64,000 nucleotides of DNA, from positions 310,001 to 374,000 of the forward strand of contig NZ_CP051180.1 of NCBI RefSeq assembly GCF_012295575.1. Reading direction: 5' to 3'. Positions within the stretch are counted from its first letter, which is position 1. Each line of letters begins with the position of its first letter. Shown piece by piece: positions 8,651 to 44,787 of the stretch. The notes under the pieces are model-generated. The model was not told the DNA's origin. It did not search any database and was given only the letters and a program-made list of their open reading frames with translations. Position numbers and translations under genes: made by a program. This DNA comes from Ferrimonas lipolytica. Its GTDB lineage: Bacteria; Pseudomonadota; Gammaproteobacteria; Enterobacterales; Shewanellaceae.

Positions 8651-9187
8651 TTAGCAATCGCGATAATCGTTGTCTTTCGGTTGGAACGCCACCACACCGC
8701 CACGTCCCACTTCAATGTCACAACAACGGGTTAAGTTTTGCTTCAATTTTTCTCTTCCTCGCTGAATGCGACTCTTAGCTCCAGAGAGCGATAACCCCAA
8801 CTCATCCGCAACTTGCTGTTGGCTGTAGTTGCCTAGTTCGGCGAGTTTTAGCGGTGCCTGATACTTTTCTGGTAATTCGTTGATTAATGGCTCGAGGCAT
8901 TGCGCAAGCTGTTGATGGGATAGCTCGGCTTGGTCGGCTTCTACTGCGACTAAGTCTTCTGATAGTTGCTGTTGCGTTTTTTGCTGACGGAAGTGGTCCA
9001 TCATGGTGTTATGTGCGATACGAAACAGCCATGCGCCAATATTTTCTGTGGATTGCAGCTGTCGTTGTTGCCCGTGGGCTTTAATAAACACCTCTTGCAG
9101 GATGTCATCAGCTAACGTCGGGTCTTGCAGCTGCTTCGCAATGTAACCATGGAGGCGTTTTTTGTGTTCAAGCCAGTGATTTAGCAT
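8651..9187 (-). CDS. ECF-type RNA polymerase sigma factor, SigZ-like
   Basis: A 178-residue sigma-70 family factor with region 2 (LADDILQEVFIKAHGQQRQL and AWLFRIAHNTMMDHFRQ) and region 4 (LPEKYQAPLKLAELGNYSQQ then an HTH ending AKSRIQRGREKLK). After region 4 is a short tail with a Cys-Cys pair and a terminal Cys (RCCDIEVGRGG ... YRDC), a feature of SigZ-type factors that may bind metal or sense redox. No anti-sigma gene lies next to it: the ProX gene is convergent on one side and non-coding sequence with tRNA repeats is on the other. Regulon unknown. Confidence 0.85.
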   Translation of the reverse strand: MLNHWLEHKKRLHGYIAKQLQDPTLADDILQEVFIKAHGQQRQLQSTENIGAWLFRIAHNTMMDHFRQQKTQQQLSEDLVAVEADQAELSHQQLAQCLEPLINELPEKYQAPLKLAELGNYSQQQVADELGLSLSGAKSRIQRGREKLKQNLTRCCDIEVGRGGVVAFQPKDNDYRDC

Positions 9188-9520
9188 AGAAGGACAATGA
9201 TCATCGTTTAGAGGGTTGTTAACTAGTGTAACCCTGTTAGAAGCGGTTGCCGTAGGCTAGAAATCAACAGAGAAGATCCATACCCACAGCTTTGGTGATC
9301 TTATCCGCATCACTGTGAATGGAAGCAATTGCCGAGTTGATTGCATCTAGTCGGTACACAGGCTTGTTTACTGAACAAGCGAGCAGTGTTCGTCTCCTAA
9401 ACTGTGTGGCAAGATTTATGGCATTGATGCCGACCTGATTAGCCGCATGCGTAAGCTAACCTGAGCGTGTATTAAGATCCTGAAACGACAAAACTCAACA
9501 CTAGGCTGTATTTTTTTAAA
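9188..9520. other. Intergenic region between sigZ-like gene and tRNA repeat array
   Basis: No recognisable gene. On the minus strand an uninterrupted open stretch of 64 codons (9264-9455, ending ...KAVGMDLLC) has protein-like composition but no start codon with a ribosome site and no family match I can name; it may be a gene remnant. The right edge (about 9490) contains degenerate spacer sequence related to the tRNA-Phe operon. Confidence 0.4.
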
Positions 9521-10124
9521 CAGCGCCTCGTCCGCGTTCGGGCTAGGGGCACGCGCCGATCTTTTGTAAGCCAATCCGCTGTTTTGATTTGGTGGCTAGA
9601 AATGAAAAAGGCTCAATCCGAAGATTGAGCCTTATCAATATGGTGCCTCGTCCCGGAATCGAGCTAGGGGCACGCGCCGATCTTTTGTAAGCCAATCCGC
9701 TGTTTTGATTTGGTGGCTAGAAATGAAAAAGGCTCAATCCGAAGATTGAGCCTTATCAATATGGTGCCTCGTCCCGGAATCGAGCTAGGGGCATGCGTCG
9801 ATCTTTTGTAAGCCAATCCGCTGTTTTGCTTTGGTGGCTAGAAATGAAAAAGGCTCAATCCGAAGATTGAGCCTTATCAATATGGTGCCTCGTCCCGGAA
9901 TCGAGCTAGGGACACGCGCCGATCTTTTGTAAGCCAATCCGCTGCTTTGCTTTGGTGGCTAGAAATGAAAAAGGCTCAATCCGAAGATTGAGCCTTATCA
10001 ATATGGTGCCTCGTCCCGGAATCGAGCTAGGGGCATGCGTCGATCTTTTGTAAGCCAATCCGCTGTTTTGCTTTGGTGGCTAGAAATGAAAAAGGCTCAA
10101 TCCGAAGATTGAGCCTTATCAATA

Positions 10125-10210
10125 TGGTGCCTCGTCCCGGAATCGAACTAGGGACACGCGCCGATTTTTTGTAAGCCAATCCGCTGCTCTACCAACTGAG
10201 CTAACGAGGC
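10125..10210 (-). pseudogene. Chimeric tRNA-Phe pseudogene with altered anticodon arm
   Basis: 86 nt, with 5' acceptor strand, D-arm, T-arm and CCA of tRNA-Phe. The seven-base anticodon-loop region is replaced by an insert found in the neighbouring 121-bp units, adding 10 nt. The anticodon arm can form only an interrupted stem (GAUU/AAUC with a G.G mismatch) around an ~11-nt loop with no GAA anticodon. A T-stem pair is also lost. It appears to be a recombinant between a full tRNA-Phe copy and a 3'-fragment unit; it should not decode Phe. Confidence 0.8.
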
Positions 10211-10325
10211 GTGGTAAGTCGAAACTCAACACTTTAAAAATGGTGCCTCGTCCCGGAATCGAGCTAGGGGCACGCGCCGATCTTTTGTAAGCCAATCCGC
10301 TGTTTTGCTTTGGTGGCTAGAAATG

Positions 10326-10360
10326 AAAAAGGCTCAATCCGAAGATTGAGCCTTATCAAT
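10326..10360 (-). terminator. Terminator of the tRNA-Phe operon
   Basis: Directly after the CCA of the last intact tRNA-Phe: GGCTCAATC, TTCG tetraloop, GATTGAGCC, then TTTTT. The same hairpin is repeated in each downstream unit (for example about 9605-9633, 9726-9754, 9847-9875, 9968-9996 and 10089-10117). Confidence 0.9.
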
Positions 10361-10361
10361 A

Positions 10362-10437
10362 TGGTGCCTCGTCCCGGAATCGAACCAGGGACACGCGGAT
10401 TTTCAATCCGCTGCTCTACCAACTGAGCTAACGAGGC
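10362..10437 (-). tRNA. tRNA-Phe (GAA), copy 4 of operon
   Basis: 76 nt with encoded CCA. Cloverleaf: acceptor GCCTCGT/ACGAGGC, anticodon stem GCGGA/TCCGC around loop TTGAAAA (anticodon GAA), and T-loop TTCGATT. Last intact copy in transcription order, immediately before the terminator. Confidence 0.97.
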
Positions 10438-10467
10438 GTGGTAAGTCGAAACTTAACACTTTAAAAA

Positions 10468-10543
10468 TGGTGCCTCGTCCCGGAATCGAACCAGGGACAC
10501 GCGGATTTTCAATCCGCTGCTCTACCAACTGAGCTAACGAGGC
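10468..10543 (-). tRNA. tRNA-Phe (GAA), copy 3 of operon
   Basis: Identical 76-nt tRNA-Phe with CCA. Separated from the next copy by a 30-bp spacer (GTGGTAAGTCGAAAC...) that is almost the same between copies. Confidence 0.97.
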
Positions 10544-10573
10544 GTGGTAAGTCGAAACTCAACACTTTAAAAA

Positions 10574-10649
10574 TGGTGCCTCGTCCCGGAATCGAACCAG
10601 GGACACGCGGATTTTCAATCCGCTGCTCTACCAACTGAGCTAACGAGGC
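10574..10649 (-). tRNA. tRNA-Phe (GAA), copy 2 of operon
   Basis: Identical 76-nt tRNA-Phe with CCA and anticodon GAA. The spacer to copy 3 is 30 bp; the spacer to copy 1 is longer (67 bp) and different in sequence. Confidence 0.97.
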
Positions 10650-10716
10650 AAGTTCTTGCTAAACAAATGTCCGGCAACAACTTTGATTTACTGGCTAATG
10701 CCAATCAATCGAAAGA

Positions 10717-10792
10717 TGGTGCCTCGTCCCGGAATCGAACCAGGGACACGCGGATTTTCAATCCGCTGCTCTACCAACTGAGCTAACGAGGC
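10717..10792 (-). tRNA. tRNA-Phe (GAA), copy 1 of operon
   Basis: First tRNA of the operon in transcription order; identical 76-nt cloverleaf with encoded CCA. A strong promoter lies just upstream. Confidence 0.97.
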
Positions 10793-10802
10793 GACGGGGC
10801 GC

Positions 10803-10832
10803 TATTAAACGGATTTTCGGTGTCCGCGTCAA
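10803..10832 (-). promoter_or_regulatory. Promoter of tRNA-Phe operon
   Basis: Minus strand: -35 TTGACG (10832-10827), ~18-bp spacer, -10 TTAATA (10808-10803), then the G/C-rich discriminator GCGCCCCGTC leading straight into the first tRNA. This is the classic layout of a growth-rate and stringently controlled stable-RNA promoter. Confidence 0.75.
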
Positions 10833-10980
10833 CTCAATTATGCGCGTCTGCTGGAAAGATACGCAATTTGTGTTTGAGCGAACACAGTTTAATCTGTCTG
10901 GGTTGAAATTTGTGCAAAAAATTGCAGTGTTGCATCAAAAAGGGCGAAATAAATCGATTGCGATTTGGGCGTGAAGACCG

Positions 10981-11018
10981 AAAAAAATAAAGACTCAGGG
11001 ATTATCCTAAGTCTTTTT
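10981..11018 (-). terminator. Terminator downstream of TorF-like porin gene
   Basis: On the minus strand an AAAGACTTAGG ... CCTGAGTCTTT stem followed by ATTTTTTT, about 40 bp after the porin stop codon. Confidence 0.75.
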
Positions 11019-11847: not shown

Positions 11848-13272
11848 TCAGTCCAGTTCAGCTTCACCTTGCTCGATCAAGGCAAATTCCTCTTCGGCGG
11901 TGCGTTTGGAGACCTCTTTATGTTTGAACATGAAGAAGTAGCCCATACCAATTGCATACATAACGACCATGGCAATCGCCGCTCTTTGGTCGTAAACGAA
12001 ACAAGAGGTCAATGCGATGAGTGACAAAACGATGGTGATCCAAGCGGTAATGTCGCCACCGGGGGCTAGATATGGTCGCTTAATATCAGGGCGAGTTTTA
12101 CGTAAACGGATGGCGCTGTACGCCTGCATTGCGTAGGAGATGGTAGCGCCAAATACCGCCATCATAATCATCATGTCACCTTCGCCAGTCAGGGACGCGA
12201 AGAAACCGAAGATGCCGGGAACGATCAGCGCCCAGATTGGGATCTTGCGACTTGAGGTGCGTGACATGAATTCTGGCAAATAACCAGCGCGAGATAGGGC
12301 AAATACCAAGCGGCTATAGCCATAGATGATGGAGAAGAACGAAGCGATAAGTCCGGTTAAGCCAACTACGTTAACGAAGTTCGCCATCATCGAATCTTCA
12401 CCCTGAACCGCGCGTAATGCATCAACCAGTGGTGCAGCATAGGAACCGGCGGCTTTTGCCCCGGTTGCTCCAGGAACTAATAGCATCACTAATGCCGCTG
12501 AACACAGTAGGAAGATCATTGCCCCAATAATCCCGCGAGGTACGTCTTTGGCTGGGTCTTTGGCTTCTTCTGCAGCCATAGGCACGCCTTCCACTGCTAA
12601 GAACAGCCAAATAGCGAATGGCAGAGCAACCCATACCCCTTTCCAACCTTCAGGTAAGAAGGTTGAAGAGCCAGCAACTTCTGGATTGGCAGCAATATCA
12701 AACAGGTTTGCAGCGTCAAAATGCGGTACTAAACCAATGGCGGTGACAATAATAGCCAGTACAGCGAAGGCGGTAATAACCAACATCAGCTTCAATGCTT
12801 CGCCAGCACCAACAAGGTGAACACCAATAAAGACTAGATAGAACGTGGCATAAACCGTTGGTCCATTCCAGCCAATCAATGCATCAACATAGGCACCGAT
12901 AAAGATAACGATGGCCGCAGGTGCCAACGCGTATTCAATCAATACCGCTAAACCCGTGGCGAAGCCAGCCGTTGGGCCAATGGCATAGCGCGCAAAGCTA
13001 TAACCCGCGCCAGCGGTTGGGATGGCCGCGGATAGCTCCGCTAAGGTCAGCACCAATGTAAGGTACATGACCCCCATTGCAATGGCGGCAACTAACATCC
13101 CGCCCCAACCGGCTTCGGCAATACCGAAGTTCCAACCGGCGTAATCGCCGGAGATAACGTACGAAACCCCTAATGTTGCTAGCAGGAACCAGCCAGCAAC
13201 CCCTTTTTTGAGTTGTCGTTGTGGCTTTTCGCTTTTGGAAGCTAAGCCCGACGAACCTACTTGGTCGACCAT
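11848..13272 (-). CDS. eat: Ethanolamine permease (APC superfamily, Eat-type)
   Basis: A 474-residue polytopic membrane protein with about 12 predicted helices. The N-terminal signature (GVSYVISGDYAGWNFGIAEA) and AAIPTAGAGYSFARYA are typical of Eat-type ethanolamine permeases of the amino acid-polyamine-organocation superfamily. Start is ATG 13272 preceded by GTGAGGTG; the open frame extends to an upstream GTG that lies in the SD itself. It imports ethanolamine across the inner membrane and stands in for EutH, which is absent. It is the last gene of the eut cluster, ~100 bp after the pduT-like gene, so it may have its own promoter. Confidence 0.9.
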   Translation of the reverse strand: MVDQVGSSGLASKSEKPQRQLKKGVAGWFLLATLGVSYVISGDYAGWNFGIAEAGWGGMLVAAIAMGVMYLTLVLTLAELSAAIPTAGAGYSFARYAIGPTAGFATGLAVLIEYALAPAAIVIFIGAYVDALIGWNGPTVYATFYLVFIGVHLVGAGEALKLMLVITAFAVLAIIVTAIGLVPHFDAANLFDIAANPEVAGSSTFLPEGWKGVWVALPFAIWLFLAVEGVPMAAEEAKDPAKDVPRGIIGAMIFLLCSAALVMLLVPGATGAKAAGSYAAPLVDALRAVQGEDSMMANFVNVVGLTGLIASFFSIIYGYSRLVFALSRAGYLPEFMSRTSSRKIPIWALIVPGIFGFFASLTGEGDMMIMMAVFGATISYAMQAYSAIRLRKTRPDIKRPYLAPGGDITAWITIVLSLIALTSCFVYDQRAAIAMVVMYAIGMGYFFMFKHKEVSKRTAEEEFALIEQGEAELD

Positions 13273-13373
13273 ATAACACCTCACTACGTGATGTTTCTGA
13301 TAAATAATCAGTGTCAGCGTTCAGCCAATTGATTACCTCGTTATTAATTAAATTAACCAGTGAAGTACTGGCG

Positions 13374-13922
13374 CTAAACTTTGCCTTCCAAAACCTCCGG
13401 TCGGGGTTGTGGAATAACAACCTTGTCAACCAGTAGTCCTTTATGCCGGATCTGGTTGATTGCGGCTTCGACCGCAGCGGTAACCGCTGCGACATCGCCG
13501 GTTAATGTGACGTAGCCTTTACCGCCGATGGCCATCGCAATATGCACCTCTAGCAGTTCGACGTTAGCGGCCTTCACCGCGGCGTCAGCGGCTTCTACGA
13601 TACTGGCGATTGAGAACGTTTCGATGATCCCCAATGCACCGGTTTGGGAAACCACACGAGTACCTGAGATTGCGGGAAACACATCGGGGTGAACATTGGG
13701 GATCAGCAGGTCATCGATTACTTCACCGCCACCAGCGGCTAGGCCGGTATCCATGGCGGCATTGACGGCGGCGACATCGCCGGCCACCAGCACCATATAT
13801 TTACCGGGACAGATGGTGCGGTTAAAAAGCAGCTCCACTTCCGCTGCCTTTAGCATTGCATCGGCGACGAAGTACCCACGGGCAATGGAGTTCAATTCAA
13901 TACAGCCAATTGCGTTTAACAT
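13374..13922 (-). CDS. pduT: PduT-like tandem-BMC shell protein with Fe-S cysteine
   Basis: 182 residues containing two BMC domains (~1-90 and ~93-180; the second begins ALGIIETFSIASIVEAADAA). The first carries Cys38 in TICPGK, exactly where PduT binds a [4Fe-4S] cluster at the pore of its pseudohexameric trimer. PduT is thought to conduct electrons across the microcompartment shell, and its known partner PduS is encoded directly upstream (2-bp gap). Such a protein is not part of the standard enteric eut operon. Assignment is by sequence; the symbol is borrowed from the propanediol system and the substrate context here is ethanolamine. Confidence 0.9.
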   Translation of the reverse strand: MLNAIGCIELNSIARGYFVADAMLKAAEVELLFNRTICPGKYMVLVAGDVAAVNAAMDTGLAAGGGEVIDDLLIPNVHPDVFPAISGTRVVSQTGALGIIETFSIASIVEAADAAVKAANVELLEVHIAMAIGGKGYVTLTGDVAAVTAAVEAAINQIRHKGLLVDKVVIPQPRPEVLEGKV

Positions 13923-13924
13923 CG

Positions 13925-15298
13925 TTATCCATCCATCTGTTGGGTGATTTCAATCGTGTCGCCAACGGCCGTGACGGTGCCGTTGATGCTGGCGTGAATC
14001 GCTACACTGAGCGTTTCTGGGGTGGGTTGTCCTATCATTTGTCCTGCCTCAACCACATCACCCACTGCGACGATGGCTTGAGCTGGTGCGCCGATATGCT
14101 GTGATAGTGGGATTCGAACCTGTTGAGGGCGCGGCTTGCTGCTATCATTGCTGGCGGCTTCTATGAGTTGGCTCAGCGGCTGGAAACTGGCTTTTACTTT
14201 GGCGTAGCCAGTGAGCTCTAAGCGCTGGGTTAAGCGCTTGGTGGGCACGCCGCGGTAGGAGCGTAGTGGGTGCACAGTGGTGGCTTGAGCTTGCAATTGG
14301 GCCGGCGTTTGCCAAAGGTCGTTGTCTCGCAACGCTTGTTTGGTCAAGGTGCAGACACGGCTGGGATCGAGCCCTTCGGGGCATGACCACATCGAACAAA
14401 GGTTGCAGGCACTACACGCTTGGGCTGCAAGTGCATAACCGACGTTATCGGTAAGGGAGACCTGCAACGAGCGCATTGCTAAATGCGGTTGGATTGGGTA
14501 ACCGAGTAGATGGCGAGGGCACATAGAGGTACATAGGCTGCATTGATCGCAGGCGGATTTACCTATGCGGCGAACCTCTGCCTCTGGGCGCATTTTGTAG
14601 CGAGCGACTCTGCCGTTCGTTGGCAGAACTAATAAACCGCTATCGATTTTGGTGATGGGACGGTCCAGATCTTGGCTGATACTCCCCATTAAAGGCCCGC
14701 CAACCAAAATCACATAGTCATCGCAGGTTGGACCTCCAGCAAGGTGTAGCGCCTCGCCAAAGCTCATCCCGACCGGTAACCAGCTGGTATAGGGGGTGTT
14801 GACTTCACCATGAACCGTCACCATCGATTGGGTTACTGATTGCCCTTGGGCGGCACGAAACAGATTGATAAAAGATTCCACGTTGTTGACCAAGCAACCG
14901 ACCTCTTTTGGCAACCCTCCTGCGGGGGGTAATCGTCCTGTTGCTTCGTAGATCAGCTCCACTTCATCGCCGGCAGGATAAACATCTTCCATCAACAGCA
15001 ACTCAATTTGCGCTGGTCGGCACGATTCTAATATCTCGATGGTATCGGCGTTTTTGCGCTTGATGCCTACTGCTGCTTTGCCGGCGCCAACCTGCTCCAT
15101 CGCCAATAACATGCCACCAAAAAGTTCGGTGGCGTGGCGTTGCATCAATGCTTGATCCTTGTACAACAGTGGTTCGCACTCGGCTCCGTTAGCGAGTACC
15201 CATTCGACTTGGCAATCAAGCTTAAGGTAGGTTGGAAAACCCGCCCCACCAGCGCCAATTACCCCAGCTTGCTGAACTTGTTGCAGCAGCGCATCCAT
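13925..15298 (-). CDS. pduS: PduS-like cobalamin reductase / RnfC-like NADH dehydrogenase
   Basis: Start ATG 15298 behind AGGGAG (an in-frame TTG two codons upstream is not favoured). The 457-residue protein has an N-terminal nucleotide-binding region with GVIGAGGAGFPTYLK and an acidic FMN-site segment NGAECEPLLYKD. A central SLBB-like region follows, then two [4Fe-4S] motifs (CDQCSLCTSMCP about residue 250 and CSACNLCSMWSCP about 296), and a C-terminal barrel-sandwich domain. This order matches PduS, a flavoprotein that reduces cob(III)alamin and docks on PduT. Here it probably delivers electrons for cobalamin reduction ahead of EutT adenosylation, or moves NADH electrons across the shell. 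It sits between eutL and the pduT-like gene. Confidence 0.9.
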   Translation of the reverse strand: MDALLQQVQQAGVIGAGGAGFPTYLKLDCQVEWVLANGAECEPLLYKDQALMQRHATELFGGMLLAMEQVGAGKAAVGIKRKNADTIEILESCRPAQIELLLMEDVYPAGDEVELIYEATGRLPPAGGLPKEVGCLVNNVESFINLFRAAQGQSVTQSMVTVHGEVNTPYTSWLPVGMSFGEALHLAGGPTCDDYVILVGGPLMGSISQDLDRPITKIDSGLLVLPTNGRVARYKMRPEAEVRRIGKSACDQCSLCTSMCPRHLLGYPIQPHLAMRSLQVSLTDNVGYALAAQACSACNLCSMWSCPEGLDPSRVCTLTKQALRDNDLWQTPAQLQAQATTVHPLRSYRGVPTKRLTQRLELTGYAKVKASFQPLSQLIEAASNDSSKPRPQQVRIPLSQHIGAPAQAIVAVGDVVEAGQMIGQPTPETLSVAIHASINGTVTAVGDTIEITQQMDG

Positions 15299-15309
15299 GT
15301 GCAACTCCC

Positions 15310-15966
15310 TTAATGGCTGATTGGGTTGCTGGCAATGTCAATTACCGCTGCCTCAAACGCGTCACAGGCTGCCTTGCACGCGGCTTGAGAACCTGCAAGA
15401 TGGCCACCGGCAAAGTTCGTTTCTGAAGGCGGTGCGAATAAATTTTTCAGTTCAACGTCAGCGGCTTTAAGTGCTGCATCAAGGCCATACATCGCCTCTA
15501 AAGGTGGCGCGATTAAATAGGCGAGGGCGGTGCCCTGTTCAACGTCTGCTTCGGCGGAGAGGTAACTGCCAGTAGAGGAAACCAGATGGGCAAAGTAGGC
15601 CAACTCGCCACTGCTGTCGCCAACCTGAAAGGCGGCTTCATCAGCAATAAAGCCTTTGATGCGCTCTAACCCTGCAATGATGTCGGCAGGGCAAGAGGCG
15701 GCAATGATGCCAATGATTTCGCCCGAAGTAGGGCCTGAAGCATGAGCTGCGCCAGCGTAGAATGACTTGGCGTACACCACCTCGACATCGGCGGCTTTGG
15801 TGGCTTCATCGAGTGCACAGTAGGTGACATCATCGCAATCTGCGGTGACTAAACCGATACTGTTGTGGTGATCTTTTAGTCCTAATTGTGCTTTGTAGGC
15901 TGGATCGACAGATGCGATAACACGAGTTGCTAATACAGCCGGTTGAATTCTATCTTTAATCGCCAT
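15310..15966 (-). CDS. eutL: Ethanolamine microcompartment shell protein EutL
   Basis: 218 residues from MAIKDRIQPAVLATRVI, matching EutL length (219 in E. coli). The frame is open further upstream into eutC but ATG 15966 with an AGGAGC-type SD is the family start. EutL has two circularly permuted BMC domains (~1-110 and ~115-218) and forms a trimer with a gated central pore thought to pass large cofactors. Typical segments are SGEIIGIIAASCPADIIAGL and a Cys-containing C-terminus. It is 13 bp after eutC in the same operon. Confidence 0.95.
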   Translation of the reverse strand: MAIKDRIQPAVLATRVIASVDPAYKAQLGLKDHHNSIGLVTADCDDVTYCALDEATKAADVEVVYAKSFYAGAAHASGPTSGEIIGIIAASCPADIIAGLERIKGFIADEAAFQVGDSSGELAYFAHLVSSTGSYLSAEADVEQGTALAYLIAPPLEAMYGLDAALKAADVELKNLFAPPSETNFAGGHLAGSQAACKAACDAFEAAVIDIASNPISH

Positions 15967-15979
15967 TATCGAGCTCCTG

Positions 15980-16882
15980 TTATCGTTTAAGGTTGATGCC
16001 ACTGGCTTTGTTGGCCAGCATCGATTTGGCCAGATCAACAATCACCGCCGCGGCTTCAACCGGTGGGGTTCCGCCAGCGTGGATATTGGAGATAACCGTT
16101 CGGTCTGATTCGACCGTGTCGGCCGTTGGTCGGTACACCGCGTAGCAACTTAAAGATTCGGATTGCCCCAGCCCGGGGCGCTCACCAATCAATAACAGAT
16201 TCACTTCGGCATCCAGCAACATCCCGATTTGGTCCTGCGCCTTAACGCGGCCGTAGCGGAGGAAGAACGGGGTACCGACATTTAGCCCTGCGTTCTCCAG
16301 TCCTTTCAGCAGGGCCGGTAAGATTTCGCCGTGATTAACGGTGACGGCATCGAGGCTCAGCCCGTCGGACAGCACTACCTGAACCTGCGGTGAGGCTTGG
16401 CATTTCTCCTTAATTGTGGCCTTGGCTTCGTCGTTGAGTAATCGCCCTAAATCAGGCCTAGTCAGGTATTCATCTTTGTCGTGGGCACAGCTCTGTACCT
16501 CCATCAAACCGCGCTCGACTAACCATTGCGGATCGACATTTTTCAACACGGTATCTTTGGACCGAGAGTGGTCGGCCAAAAAGCGCAGCATCGCGGTGGT
16601 GCGCAGTCTTGGGCCGGCTCTGCCTTTGCCAACCCGCGCATCGGTCTGAGCGATGAGATCTTTGATCACAGCTTCATCGTCGACGTCATTGGTACCAATC
16701 CAGGTTTTGTGCTCGTCGTTGCCAAGATCGGGTAAGCAGCCAGTGTCACCGCCTGGGTTCGCTGCAATTGGGGACTGTGTGCTGGTCGTGGCAATCTGCT
16801 TAATCGCCGCCGGTTCAATCTGGTCTTCGCCAAGTTGGGCTAACACGGTCGCTACTATCTGTTGAATCCTTTGCTCGTTCAT
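15980..16882 (-). CDS. eutC: Ethanolamine ammonia-lyase small subunit EutC
   Basis: 300 residues, close to the E. coli length (295). The N-terminus [20 protein letters not shown] is an amphipathic helix of the type that targets enzymes to the microcompartment lumen, followed by a ~50-residue linker. The conserved core includes [40 protein letters not shown] and [20 protein letters not shown], which contact adenosylcobalamin. With EutB it converts ethanolamine to acetaldehyde and ammonia. SD AAGGACACG; 9 bp after eutB. Confidence 0.97.
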
Positions 16883-16891
16883 GTCGTGTCC

Positions 16892-18256
16892 TTACTTGAA
16901 GAAGATGGATGGATCGCCAGCGCGGGCGGTCAATTTGCCGTTTTCCATCAGTCCCATGGTTTCCATCCATGCTTGAAACTCTGGCGCTGGCCGAAGGTTC
17001 AATAACTGGCGGGCAGTAACTGTGTCGTGATAAGAGTTGGTTTGGTAATTGAGCATGATGTCGTCACCCAACGGTAAGCCGATGACGAAGTTCACCCCTG
17101 CAGATGCCAACAGGATCAGCAGGTTCTCATTGGAGTTCTGATCGGTATCGGCGTGGTTGGTGTAGCAGGCATCACAACCCATGGGTAAGCCGGTTAGCTT
17201 ACCCATAAAGTGATCCTCTAAACCGGCACGAATAATCTGTTGGTGGTTATAGAGATACTCGGGACCGATAAAGCCAACCACGGTATTAACTAAATGAGGC
17301 TTATAGCGCCTTGCTAAGGCGTAACAACGGGCTTCCATGGTCATCTGATCGGCACCATAGTGGGCGTCAGCGGACAGTTCGGTCCCTTGACCAGTTTCGA
17401 AATACATCATGTTGCCGCCAGCGAGATTGCAATACTGTTTGCCGACCTCATATGCCTCATCCAACAGTTCAACGTTTACGCCAAACTCTGCCAAGCCCTT
17501 TTCGGTGCCAGCAATGCTCTGGAAGATAAGCCCAGCAGGGGCTCCGCGGCGAATTGCTTCCATCTGGGTGGTTACGTGGGACAGCACGCAGGGTTGAGTA
17601 GGCACCTTGTACTTGTCGATAACCTCTTGCAGTGCTTCTAATACCCGAGCGGTATTTTCGACGTTATCGGTAACGGGGTTTACGCCGATAACCGCATCGC
17701 CACAGCCGTAGCTCAAGCCTTCATAGGTTTGTGCCAAGATAGAGTTAACGTTGTCGCGGGTGTCGTTGGGTTGCAGGCGACAACTAAAATGGCCGGGCAA
17801 CCCGAGGGTGCAATTGGCTTTGGTGACCACCGGCAGTTTTTTGCCGCCGATCATCAAATCGGCGTTGGATGAAAGCTTGGCAACCCCAGCTACCATTTCG
17901 GCGGTTAAGCCCTTACGCAGCCGCTCATAGTCTTCATGATTGGGGCTATCTGAGAGGATGTACTCTCGCAACTCACTAACGGTCCAGTTCCTTATCTGCT
18001 CAAACGAGCGTCGGTTTAAGCTGTCTTGGTTGATGCGGGTAATTAGATCATCTTCGTAAGCAATGGAGGGGTTTTCGCGCAGATCGTTAAGGGTTAATTC
18101 AGATAACACATGCTTTGCTGCTACTCGTTCCTGTGCCGTTTTGGCGGCAACCCCCGCTAACACGTCACCAGAGCGTAAATCAGAGGCTTTGGCCAACACT
18201 TCCTTCACACACTTGAATTGATAAGTTTGACCAAAAAGCTGTGTCTTGAGTTTCAT
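16892..18256 (-). CDS. eutB: Ethanolamine ammonia-lyase large subunit EutB
   Basis: 454 residues, as expected for the TIM-barrel catalytic subunit (453 in E. coli). Diagnostic segments include LGLPGHFSCRLQPNDTRDNV, YGCGDAVIGVNPVTD, MYFETGQGTELSADAHYGAD and MGCDACYTNHADTDQN, covering the substrate and adenosylcobalamin pocket. It generates acetaldehyde and ammonia inside the compartment by radical chemistry. SD AAAGGATC precedes the ATG; the gene lies 13 bp after eutA. No truncation or substitution is visible. Confidence 0.98.
   Translation of the reverse strand: MKLKTQLFGQTYQFKCVKEVLAKASDLRSGDVLAGVAAKTAQERVAAKHVLSELTLNDLRENPSIAYEDDLITRINQDSLNRRSFEQIRNWTVSELREYILSDSPNHEDYERLRKGLTAEMVAGVAKLSSNADLMIGGKKLPVVTKANCTLGLPGHFSCRLQPNDTRDNVNSILAQTYEGLSYGCGDAVIGVNPVTDNVENTARVLEALQEVIDKYKVPTQPCVLSHVTTQMEAIRRGAPAGLIFQSIAGTEKGLAEFGVNVELLDEAYEVGKQYCNLAGGNMMYFETGQGTELSADAHYGADQMTMEARCYALARRYKPHLVNTVVGFIGPEYLYNHQQIIRAGLEDHFMGKLTGLPMGCDACYTNHADTDQNSNENLLILLASAGVNFVIGLPLGDDIMLNYQTNSYHDTVTARQLLNLRPAPEFQAWMETMGLMENGKLTARAGDPSIFFK

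Positions 18257-44736: not shown

Positions 44737-44787
<51 letters not shown>

Follow-up and report, generated by a model that had tools for sequence, protein, structure and literature searches.

The window examined in this study, a stretch of 64,000 nucleotides of the Ferrimonas lipolytica genome, harbors a tandem array of seven tRNA-Phe-derived units behind a tRNA-Phe operon, comprising five units of 121 bp, one full-length copy and one broken last unit. Judged by its sequence, this is a tRNA-linked repeat (TLR) array and a new case of the class, as it lies directly behind a stable-RNA gene, is repeated in tandem and ends its units in a copy of that gene's 3' end, which is the arrangement given for the tRNA and rRNA genes of E. 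coli in PMC8144298. We consider it rather probable that the array was made by unequal crossing-over and acts mainly as a set of serial terminators.

The array behind the tRNA-Phe operon

Read directly from the sequence, the array is real, and the entire tRNA-Phe operon and the array lie on the minus strand. In transcription order, a promoter-like TTGACG-17-TTTAAT, recognized by eye as the putative operon promoter (-35-like hexamer at 10827-10832, -10-like hexamer at 10804-10809, spacing 17), is followed by four identical tRNA-Phe(GAA) genes at 10717-10792 (69.3 bits), 10574-10649, 10468-10543 and 10362-10437, all detected by both ARAGORN and the Rfam tRNA model, the second to fourth of which have a tandem period of 106 bp. 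The array begins at the base right after the fourth gene. Unit 1 (10241-10361, 121 bp, 98% to the query unit) carries a terminator (10354-10329), behind which the tRNA-Phe sequence runs from about nt 25 to CCA and includes the anticodon insert GGCTTACAAAAGATCGGCGC of the window units. It is followed by a copy of the inter-tRNA spacer (10211-10240, TTTTTAAAGTGTTGAGTTTCGACTTACCAC), which is identical to one preceding an intact tRNA gene, and, without a terminator, by unit 2 (10125-10210), the full-length tRNA-Phe copy. Repeat and terminator analysis delimited four more 121-bp units, namely unit 3 (10004-10124, terminator 10117-10092), unit 4 (9883-10003, terminator 9996-9971), unit 5 (9762-9882, terminator 9875-9850) and unit 6 (9641-9761, terminator 9754-9729). 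Unit 7 (9525-9640, terminator 9633-9608, 93% to the query unit) has a broken T arm and acceptor end and lacks CCA. The earlier note had counted six copies of a tRNA 3' part with its terminator, to which the full-length copy, without a terminator, has to be added; the 121-bp periodicity it reported at 9641-10124 holds for four units in a row, with a fifth at 10361-10241 and the broken one at 9640-9525.

The next gene downstream, on the same strand, encodes an ECF-type sigma factor (8651-9187; Sigma70_r2 2.4e-13, Sigma70_r4_2 1.2e-13) and lies between the array and a gene for an aminoacyl-tRNA editing domain protein (PF04073, 7981-8541, plus strand); by eye, a gene resembling the PF04073 gene adjoins the array of another genome (G006). 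Elsewhere in the window, a perfect CAGCAA repeat of 8.5 copies occupies 44737-44787, and a minus-strand gene run at 11848-18256 resembles a set of ethanolamine utilisation (eut) genes.

A functional tRNA has a seven-base anticodon loop and a canonical fold; the full-length copy carries a 10-nt insert in its anticodon loop, measures 86 nt against the 76 of the real tRNA-Phe, and scores 40.6 bits in comparison with the 69.3 of the real genes. ARAGORN labels it (10210-10125) tRNA-Val(TAC). The change of T54 to C, previously described as shared by the units, is indeed common to the truncated ones, while the full-length copy keeps T54 (GTTCGATT) and the broken last unit has GCCCG at this site. In the complete genome of 4,133,133 bases the array is single-copy: one unit has 11 matches, all at this locus, and the intact tRNA-Phe genes account for four of these.

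The six intrinsic terminators, each preceding one of the seven units, are identical (AAGGCTCAATC-TTCG-GATTGAGCCTT), and in shuffles of 9200-11000 an average of 2.3 terminator-like sites arose. Among the five 121-bp units variation is limited to 5 of 121 columns, with 0-4 differences between any two. Units 10124-10004 and 9882-9762 (units 3 and 5) are identical with a different unit between them, an X-Y-X order which marks a 242-bp higher-order duplication and is what unequal crossing-over in two-unit blocks would leave. The last 22 nt of the local tRNA-Phe are repeated in the four distinct 121-bp sequences, and 24 nt in the full-length copy, with the CCA-bearing 3' end kept exactly in all of them. 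The view that this is a tandem array of a tRNA-Phe 3' part and terminator evolving apart from the tRNA is borne out by these data.

According to PMC8144298, TLRs have been described in E. coli since 1978 (Rudd 1999 and Egan & Landy 1978, as cited there). Strain K-12 has 22 of them at ten loci, and the last 18-19 bp of each copy the 3' end of the upstream gene. The copied end in the window is longer (22-24 nt), as is the whole tRNA part, which starts at about nt 25, bears an anticodon-loop insert and comes from tRNA-Phe. Nearly every window repeat has its own terminator, and the host is a Ferrimonas and not one of the Enterobacteriales. The window locus holds five 121-bp units, one full-length copy and one broken copy, seven in all; for E. 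coli one to five TLRs per locus are stated (PMC8144298). The parallel with the E. coli tyrT repeats drawn in the earlier note was apt, as tyrT belongs to the TLR class (PMC8144298), and its tandem RtT units (RF00391) stand behind a tRNA and each end in the tRNA 3' end and CCA; in our control, K-12 tyrT displayed four orphan tRNA-Tyr ends of 19 nt. Between two Salmonella strains the number of rtT RNA copies varies, as a 175-bp VNTR (PMC2658671). The window units, in contrast to RtT, lack the structured core and the antisense tRNA end, and tyrT, as seen by eye, has no terminator between its units. RF00391 gave no match at E <=10 in 9400-10460, while a control on locus L179 gave four matches of 133-138 bits, and the wider model R1 gave none in the window array at E 1. 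When the RtT-type closing stem, formed by a new 5' strand and the tRNA 3' strand, was looked for, no excess pairing or folding was observed in the window bodies.

Two further E. coli systems are comparable in part. RrA, RrB and RrF are three TLRs, each lying like the window units between two terminators behind a stable-RNA operon, in their case the double terminators of rRNA operons, which give rise to small RNAs that were detected, are folded and conserved, and bind CsrA and Hfq (PMC8144298), whereas the window units carry no such hint in their sequence; before these, according to the same source, no function of TLRs was known. The 3'ETS-leuZ of glyW-cysT-leuZ likewise derives from the sequence that follows a tRNA gene within a tRNA operon, differing in that it is a product of RNase E, pairs with RyhB and RybB, and involves no repeat array (PMC8144298).

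The tRNA-Pro/tRNA-His repeats of Photobacterium phosphoreum, which include pseudogenes, resemble the present array in that a marine gammaproteobacterium there has tRNA units in tandem, some of them degenerate. No TLR case from Ferrimonas or from tRNA-Phe was found in the open-access literature searched, within which the claim that a phenylalanine version is undescribed stands, even though the kind itself, the TLR, is described.

Related arrays in Ferrimonas and behind other genes

A one-unit query matched 15 of 60 genomes, these being all 14 Ferrimonas genomes (its own included) and one other, whose locus carries ordinary tRNA-Phe and tRNA-Thr genes. The tRNA-Phe loci of the 14 Ferrimonas genomes contain 33 intact tRNA-Phe genes and 50 orphan 3' ends, an orphan being a tRNA-Phe 3' end with at most 2 mismatches in 14 and without an intact anticodon, and the count including five full-length insert copies (one in the window genome, G000, and two each in G005 and G010). 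The orphans represent 45 distinct units in 12 of the 14 genomes; the two genomes without any are G012 and G004, the contig of the latter breaking off at its tRNA, and the loci of G007 and G009 contain runs of N. Thus 11 of the 13 other Ferrimonas assemblies carry related yet different arrays. Identity to the 3' end extends over at least 18 nt in 11 of the 45 distinct units and at least 12 in 38 (median 16), the tyrT control giving 19 nt in all four.

The anticodon insert of the window recurs in seven of the 14 Ferrimonas genomes (seven of the eight scanned by pattern, the other six being judged from their printed units, where none was seen), so that the insert is old. Across a contig collection described as covering 84,980 species, the insert pattern occurred in 52 stretches, of which five have a tRNA-Phe 3' end behind; four of the five are Ferrimonas records and one is labelled Marinobacter nauticus. 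This last record (NZ_JAHVJZ010000003.1, titled Marinobacter nauticus DP3N21-5) displays Ferrimonas-type arrays and is probably mislabelled. Other Ferrimonas units bear, instead of or besides the anticodon insert, a hairpin replacing the anticodon arm and a T-loop insert, and some contain an antisense copy of the tRNA-Phe end. In F. marina (G005, L039:2200-2385) a degenerate tRNA-Asn copy with an anticodon-loop insert was noticed by eye between tRNA-Phe and an intact tRNA-Asn.

Terminators are kept across the Ferrimonas tRNA-Phe units. An intrinsic terminator lies within the first 75 nt of 33 of the 42 distinct units tested, against 1.9 expected from shuffles, three of the 45 having been dropped for N, a length below 100 nt or a cut at a contig end. 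By the same test it is absent from nine of the 42, including the full-length copy of the window. Terminator stems differ between units and between Ferrimonas species, and by eye the units linked to Pro, Ser and Leu tRNAs likewise carry terminators.

Outside the genus, orphan tRNA 3' ends were not detected within about 1.5 kb at 30 loci of 15 other-genus genomes, these being the best-scoring loci only, some of them overlapping, with tRNA-Phe present at 28 (14 genomes); the same scan recovers the four tyrT units of E. coli K-12. The GGGWCGAGGCACCA pattern had no occurrence in 102 other-genus genomes, a result that is uninformative because the tRNA-Phe end differs there.

Scanning the tRNA loci of three genomes revealed orphan 3' ends behind other tRNAs as well. 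The window genome harbors five for Phe, three for Met and two for Asp; F. balearica (G013) harbors six for Pro, five for Met, three for Ser and two each for Arg, Asp and Phe, the two for Phe being already counted among the genus-wide 50; and G024, from a genus of the same family (g2, presumed Shewanella), harbors three for Leu and two for Met, another five of its ten matches (Thr, Glu) resembling chance or palindromes. A reversed-tail control gave no match in two of the genomes and 26 in G000. The 26 fall at six places, each a tRNA-Tyr gene with a nearly mirror-symmetric tail, a case for which the control made no exclusion. On these sequence comparisons the repeat habit is general and not peculiar to tRNA-Phe, and the repeats at Met and Asp in the window genome and at five F. 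balearica tRNAs argue for a general recombination process.

Several of these loci deserve mention in their own right. The window genome contains three 87-bp degenerate tRNA-Met copies within a Met-Leu-Gln tRNA cluster (L071:2700-2965), degenerate tRNA-Asp units with terminators, repeated in tandem at about 210 bp downstream of tRNA-Asp (L083:2089-2700, L068 and L077), the tRNA-Asp of L083 coming after 23S and 5S rRNA, and degenerate copies of the tRNA-Gly 5' half between intact tRNA-Gly genes (L085). In F. balearica, six units of about 124 to 135 bp with terminators, in which a hairpin replaces the anticodon arm, follow two tRNA-Pro(GGG) genes (L193), and in G024 three degenerate tRNA-Leu(CAA) 3' ends with terminators stand behind the tRNA gene (L250:2123-2475). 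The loci examined in G000 gave 142 ARAGORN tRNA calls and show strong tandem amplification, as exemplified by 11 tRNA-Lys at a period of 136 bp.

Folding of the units and possible RNA functions

The RNA part of the window units shows no sign of constraint. Against shuffles, the five window bodies gave z values of -0.95 to +0.56, while the intact tRNA-Phe gave -3.7. Among the relatives, strong folding was observed in many type B and C bodies, though not in all. Since body types were assigned by simple patterns, the class means are rough; they are -0.84 for 15 type A bodies (with one outlier of -5.4, in which extra leader hairpins are included) and -4.0 for six type B bodies with an extra hairpin. 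Another seven bodies of type B average -1.5, and the five that carry both inserts average +0.4. Bodies with an antisense tRNA end gave -3.5 to -4.4 in four of five cases and -1.4 in the fifth. The terminator-trimming rule cut five bodies to 44-45 nt on the 5' side in both the folding and the pairing tests; two of these are full-length copies, which are labelled truncated in the pairing test and excluded from the type A mean. The only Rfam match above cut-off in the array is the tRNA itself.

These observations bear on the suggestion that the units are small RNAs of the RrA/B/F type, which for the window we regard as unlikely. The window order of terminator, unit, 3' end and terminator does match that of E. 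coli RrA/B/F (PMC8144298), for which read-through past a first terminator was shown to yield processed RNA, a point on which the earlier note is right in principle, and some other Ferrimonas units are structured, such as type B units with an extra hairpin and bodies with an antisense end. The bodies of the window itself, those with both inserts and most of the seven further type B bodies are nevertheless unstructured. GGA motifs number 3 per window unit against 2.5 in shuffles (one unit) and so are not enriched, and PMC8144298 scores 19 tRNA-operon TLRs below 0.01 as CsrA binders and reports that the phenotype once ascribed to tyrT was retracted. Six of the seven units come after a terminator, and if each terminator were about 87% efficient, like rrnB T1, read-through would amount to about 13% at the first and to about 2% after the second. 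A consensus scan found no promoter inside the array, though that scan demands A at position 2 of the -10 hexamer and consequently misses the operon's own TTTAAT too. The regulatory RNAs proposed in the earlier note, and the decoys proposed beside them, are thus not supported by the sequence.

As decoys for tRNA-processing enzymes or an anticodon nuclease, for example, the units would be kept for a CCA-ended, tRNA-like fold. In the window, the 121-bp units and the full-length copy do keep an exact 3' end with CCA, and a change of the T arm into a strand complementary to the acceptor 3' strand was read in some of the truncated units from G005 and G010. Yet the acceptor strand is paired in 19 of 41 truncated units, below the 24.8 expected by chance from shuffles (five bodies being cut short on the 5' side), and the anticodon loop, by which a nuclease would recognize its target, is destroyed by the insert. 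We hold this proposal to be very improbable. The same 41 truncated units, with pairing not above shuffles, led us to reject the idea that the T54C and T-arm changes repair an acceptor microhelix. A Y RNA (YrlA) was also rejected, as PF05731 (Ro/Rsr) was found in 0 of 14 Ferrimonas genomes; the YrlA matches are sub-threshold, at 21 bits in the window and up to 34 bits across neighbouring tRNA genes of the relatives, with a cut-off of 69.

RtT-like units behind tRNA-Ser and tmRNA genes

Structured repeat units stand behind tRNA-Ser(GGA) in F. balearica (L203/L254, about 2605.2-2605.8 kb, period 180 bp) and in G002, G003 and G006 (L255, L256 and L260), carrying an antisense tRNA end and terminators. 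The core of these tRNA-Ser units is matched, in opposite-strand orientation, by the T-loop insert found in tRNA-Phe units of Ferrimonas; the core alignments gave z of 7.9 and 8.8 to type B and of 4.5 and 4.8 to type C. The core pattern occurs at 29 places in 9 of 60 genomes, and 26 of these 29 loci contain a tRNA gene; of the remaining three, two are fragments of tRNA-Phe arrays that adjoin N or the end of a contig, and one lies behind a tmRNA gene. The last belongs to G033 (contig C15; genus g2, presumed Shewanella), where a terminator and then an RtT-like unit lie directly behind tmRNA (L262:1444-1569), and the full length of the unit aligns to Rfam RtT at 38.1 bits (E 3.7e-5), below the cut-off of 45.

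The E. coli tRNA-Tyr, Ferrimonas tRNA-Ser and G033 tmRNA units have in common two hairpins and a closing stem of about ten pairs, in which a new 5' strand pairs with the host 3' end and which is interrupted in the tmRNA unit. Eight of the twelve RtT-like units were folded against shuffles and gave z of -2.6 to -4.3, and both-side changes were observed in 5 of 15 consensus pairs. Several results speak against such a kinship. The host end is repeated without mismatch over only 8 nt in the tmRNA unit, and over 17 nt in the tRNA-Ser units. Rfam RtT had no match in the Ferrimonas tRNA-Ser or tRNA-Phe units searched, only one of four same-orientation alignments of tRNA-Ser with tyrT units went beyond 300 shuffles, and a class-wide pattern for the E. 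coli-like core was found in none of 369 genomes, among which Ferrimonas is represented by G000 only. Of the R1 matches in tRNA-Phe arrays, 17 of 18 lie on the strand opposite the tRNA and only four reach E <=0.01, R1 matches taken as unrelated reaching E 0.085. Considered alone, the apparent homology of the T-loop insert to E. coli RtT is weak (best p about 0.002 in 16 comparisons); what suggests it is the Ferrimonas tRNA-Ser units and the strand bias of R1.

We put forward as a tentative possibility that TLRs are one old gammaproteobacterial class of structured RNA at the 3' ends of stable RNAs, with a common fold made of a closing stem, a 'GAGAA' arm and hairpins like CGCCG-CTTG-CGGCG and CCCC-GAA-GGGG. 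The 5' strand would be re-written to pair with the 3' end of each host, namely tRNA-Tyr in E. coli, tRNA-Ser (and, flipped, tRNA-Phe) in Ferrimonas and tmRNA in a genus of the same family, and the window array might then be a stripped descendant with the tRNA end and terminator only.

Origin and role of the array

The account of a TLR array built by unequal crossing-over and serving mainly as serial terminators draws on the six identical terminators of the window and the 33 of 42 among its relatives, the near-identical 121-bp units and their X-Y-X order, the repeated tRNA-Phe ends, the unstructured window bodies, the low score of the full-length copy, the repeats at other tRNAs and the class as defined in PMC8144298. 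It can be read directly that an insert-bearing tRNA-Phe copy lies at the operon end and that the 3' part and the operon terminator were multiplied in tandem. The full-length copy would have lost its use as a tRNA, the pair of terminator and 3' part would have multiplied and been kept uniform by unequal crossing-over, with the homology of the tRNA 3' ends helping copies to be gained and lost, and selection may now see mainly the terminators. In series, they would stop RNA polymerase coming from a strong stable-RNA promoter before the sigma-factor gene: at the efficiency of about 87% quoted for rrnB T1 in PMC8144298, a few transcripts per million would pass all six. Read-through RNA, itself rare, would be a substrate for the ordinary processing enzymes of stable RNAs, which would cleave it at the tRNA-like 3' ends and leave it to decay, the tRNA-derived part being probably a cutting site for a stable-RNA nuclease, as proposed for RNase E at RrB (PMC8144298). 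A separate RNA function is unneeded to explain what is observed in the window species.

Some observations run against this account. The anticodon insert, shared by seven of 14 Ferrimonas genomes, is old, and a functionless pseudogene should vanish or become unrecognizable unless conversion maintains it, many type B and C units of other Ferrimonas are strongly structured, terminators alone need no tRNA part of at least 52 nt per unit, and nine of the 42 units, among them the full-length copy of the window, have no terminator.

The array could also be read as attachment-site remnants or micro-cassettes of a mobile element that targets tRNA genes, since the inner parts and terminators vary while the tRNA 3' end is constant, as would be seen after serial integration. 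Against this, the array sequence has no copy elsewhere in the genome, no place in the phage and plasmid records covers 80% of it, and the best 20 of 282 and best 20 of 168 records cover at most 25%, consisting of ordinary tRNA parts. Moreover, all places found for the T-loop insert patterns lie within arrays of tRNA-Phe or tRNA-Ser or follow a tmRNA gene, and the inner parts are largely tRNA-derived, so that a mobile origin seems highly improbable to us. An assembly artefact is scarcely credible, for although tandem repeats with 0-4 differences are hard to assemble, the window units can be told apart and related but different arrays recur in the other Ferrimonas assemblies.

In summary, TLR-type units follow tRNA-Phe in 12 of the 14 Ferrimonas genomes and thereby provide comparative material for a class hitherto described in E. 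coli. The few genomes examined for other hosts added such units at Ser, Pro, Arg, Asp, Met, Leu and tmRNA genes. It can now be asked which parts persist, whether the terminators, the tRNA 3' end or the RtT-like fold, and which decay. The arrays are also a warning for annotation, as degenerate copies get called as tRNA-Val or tRNA-Ser genes.
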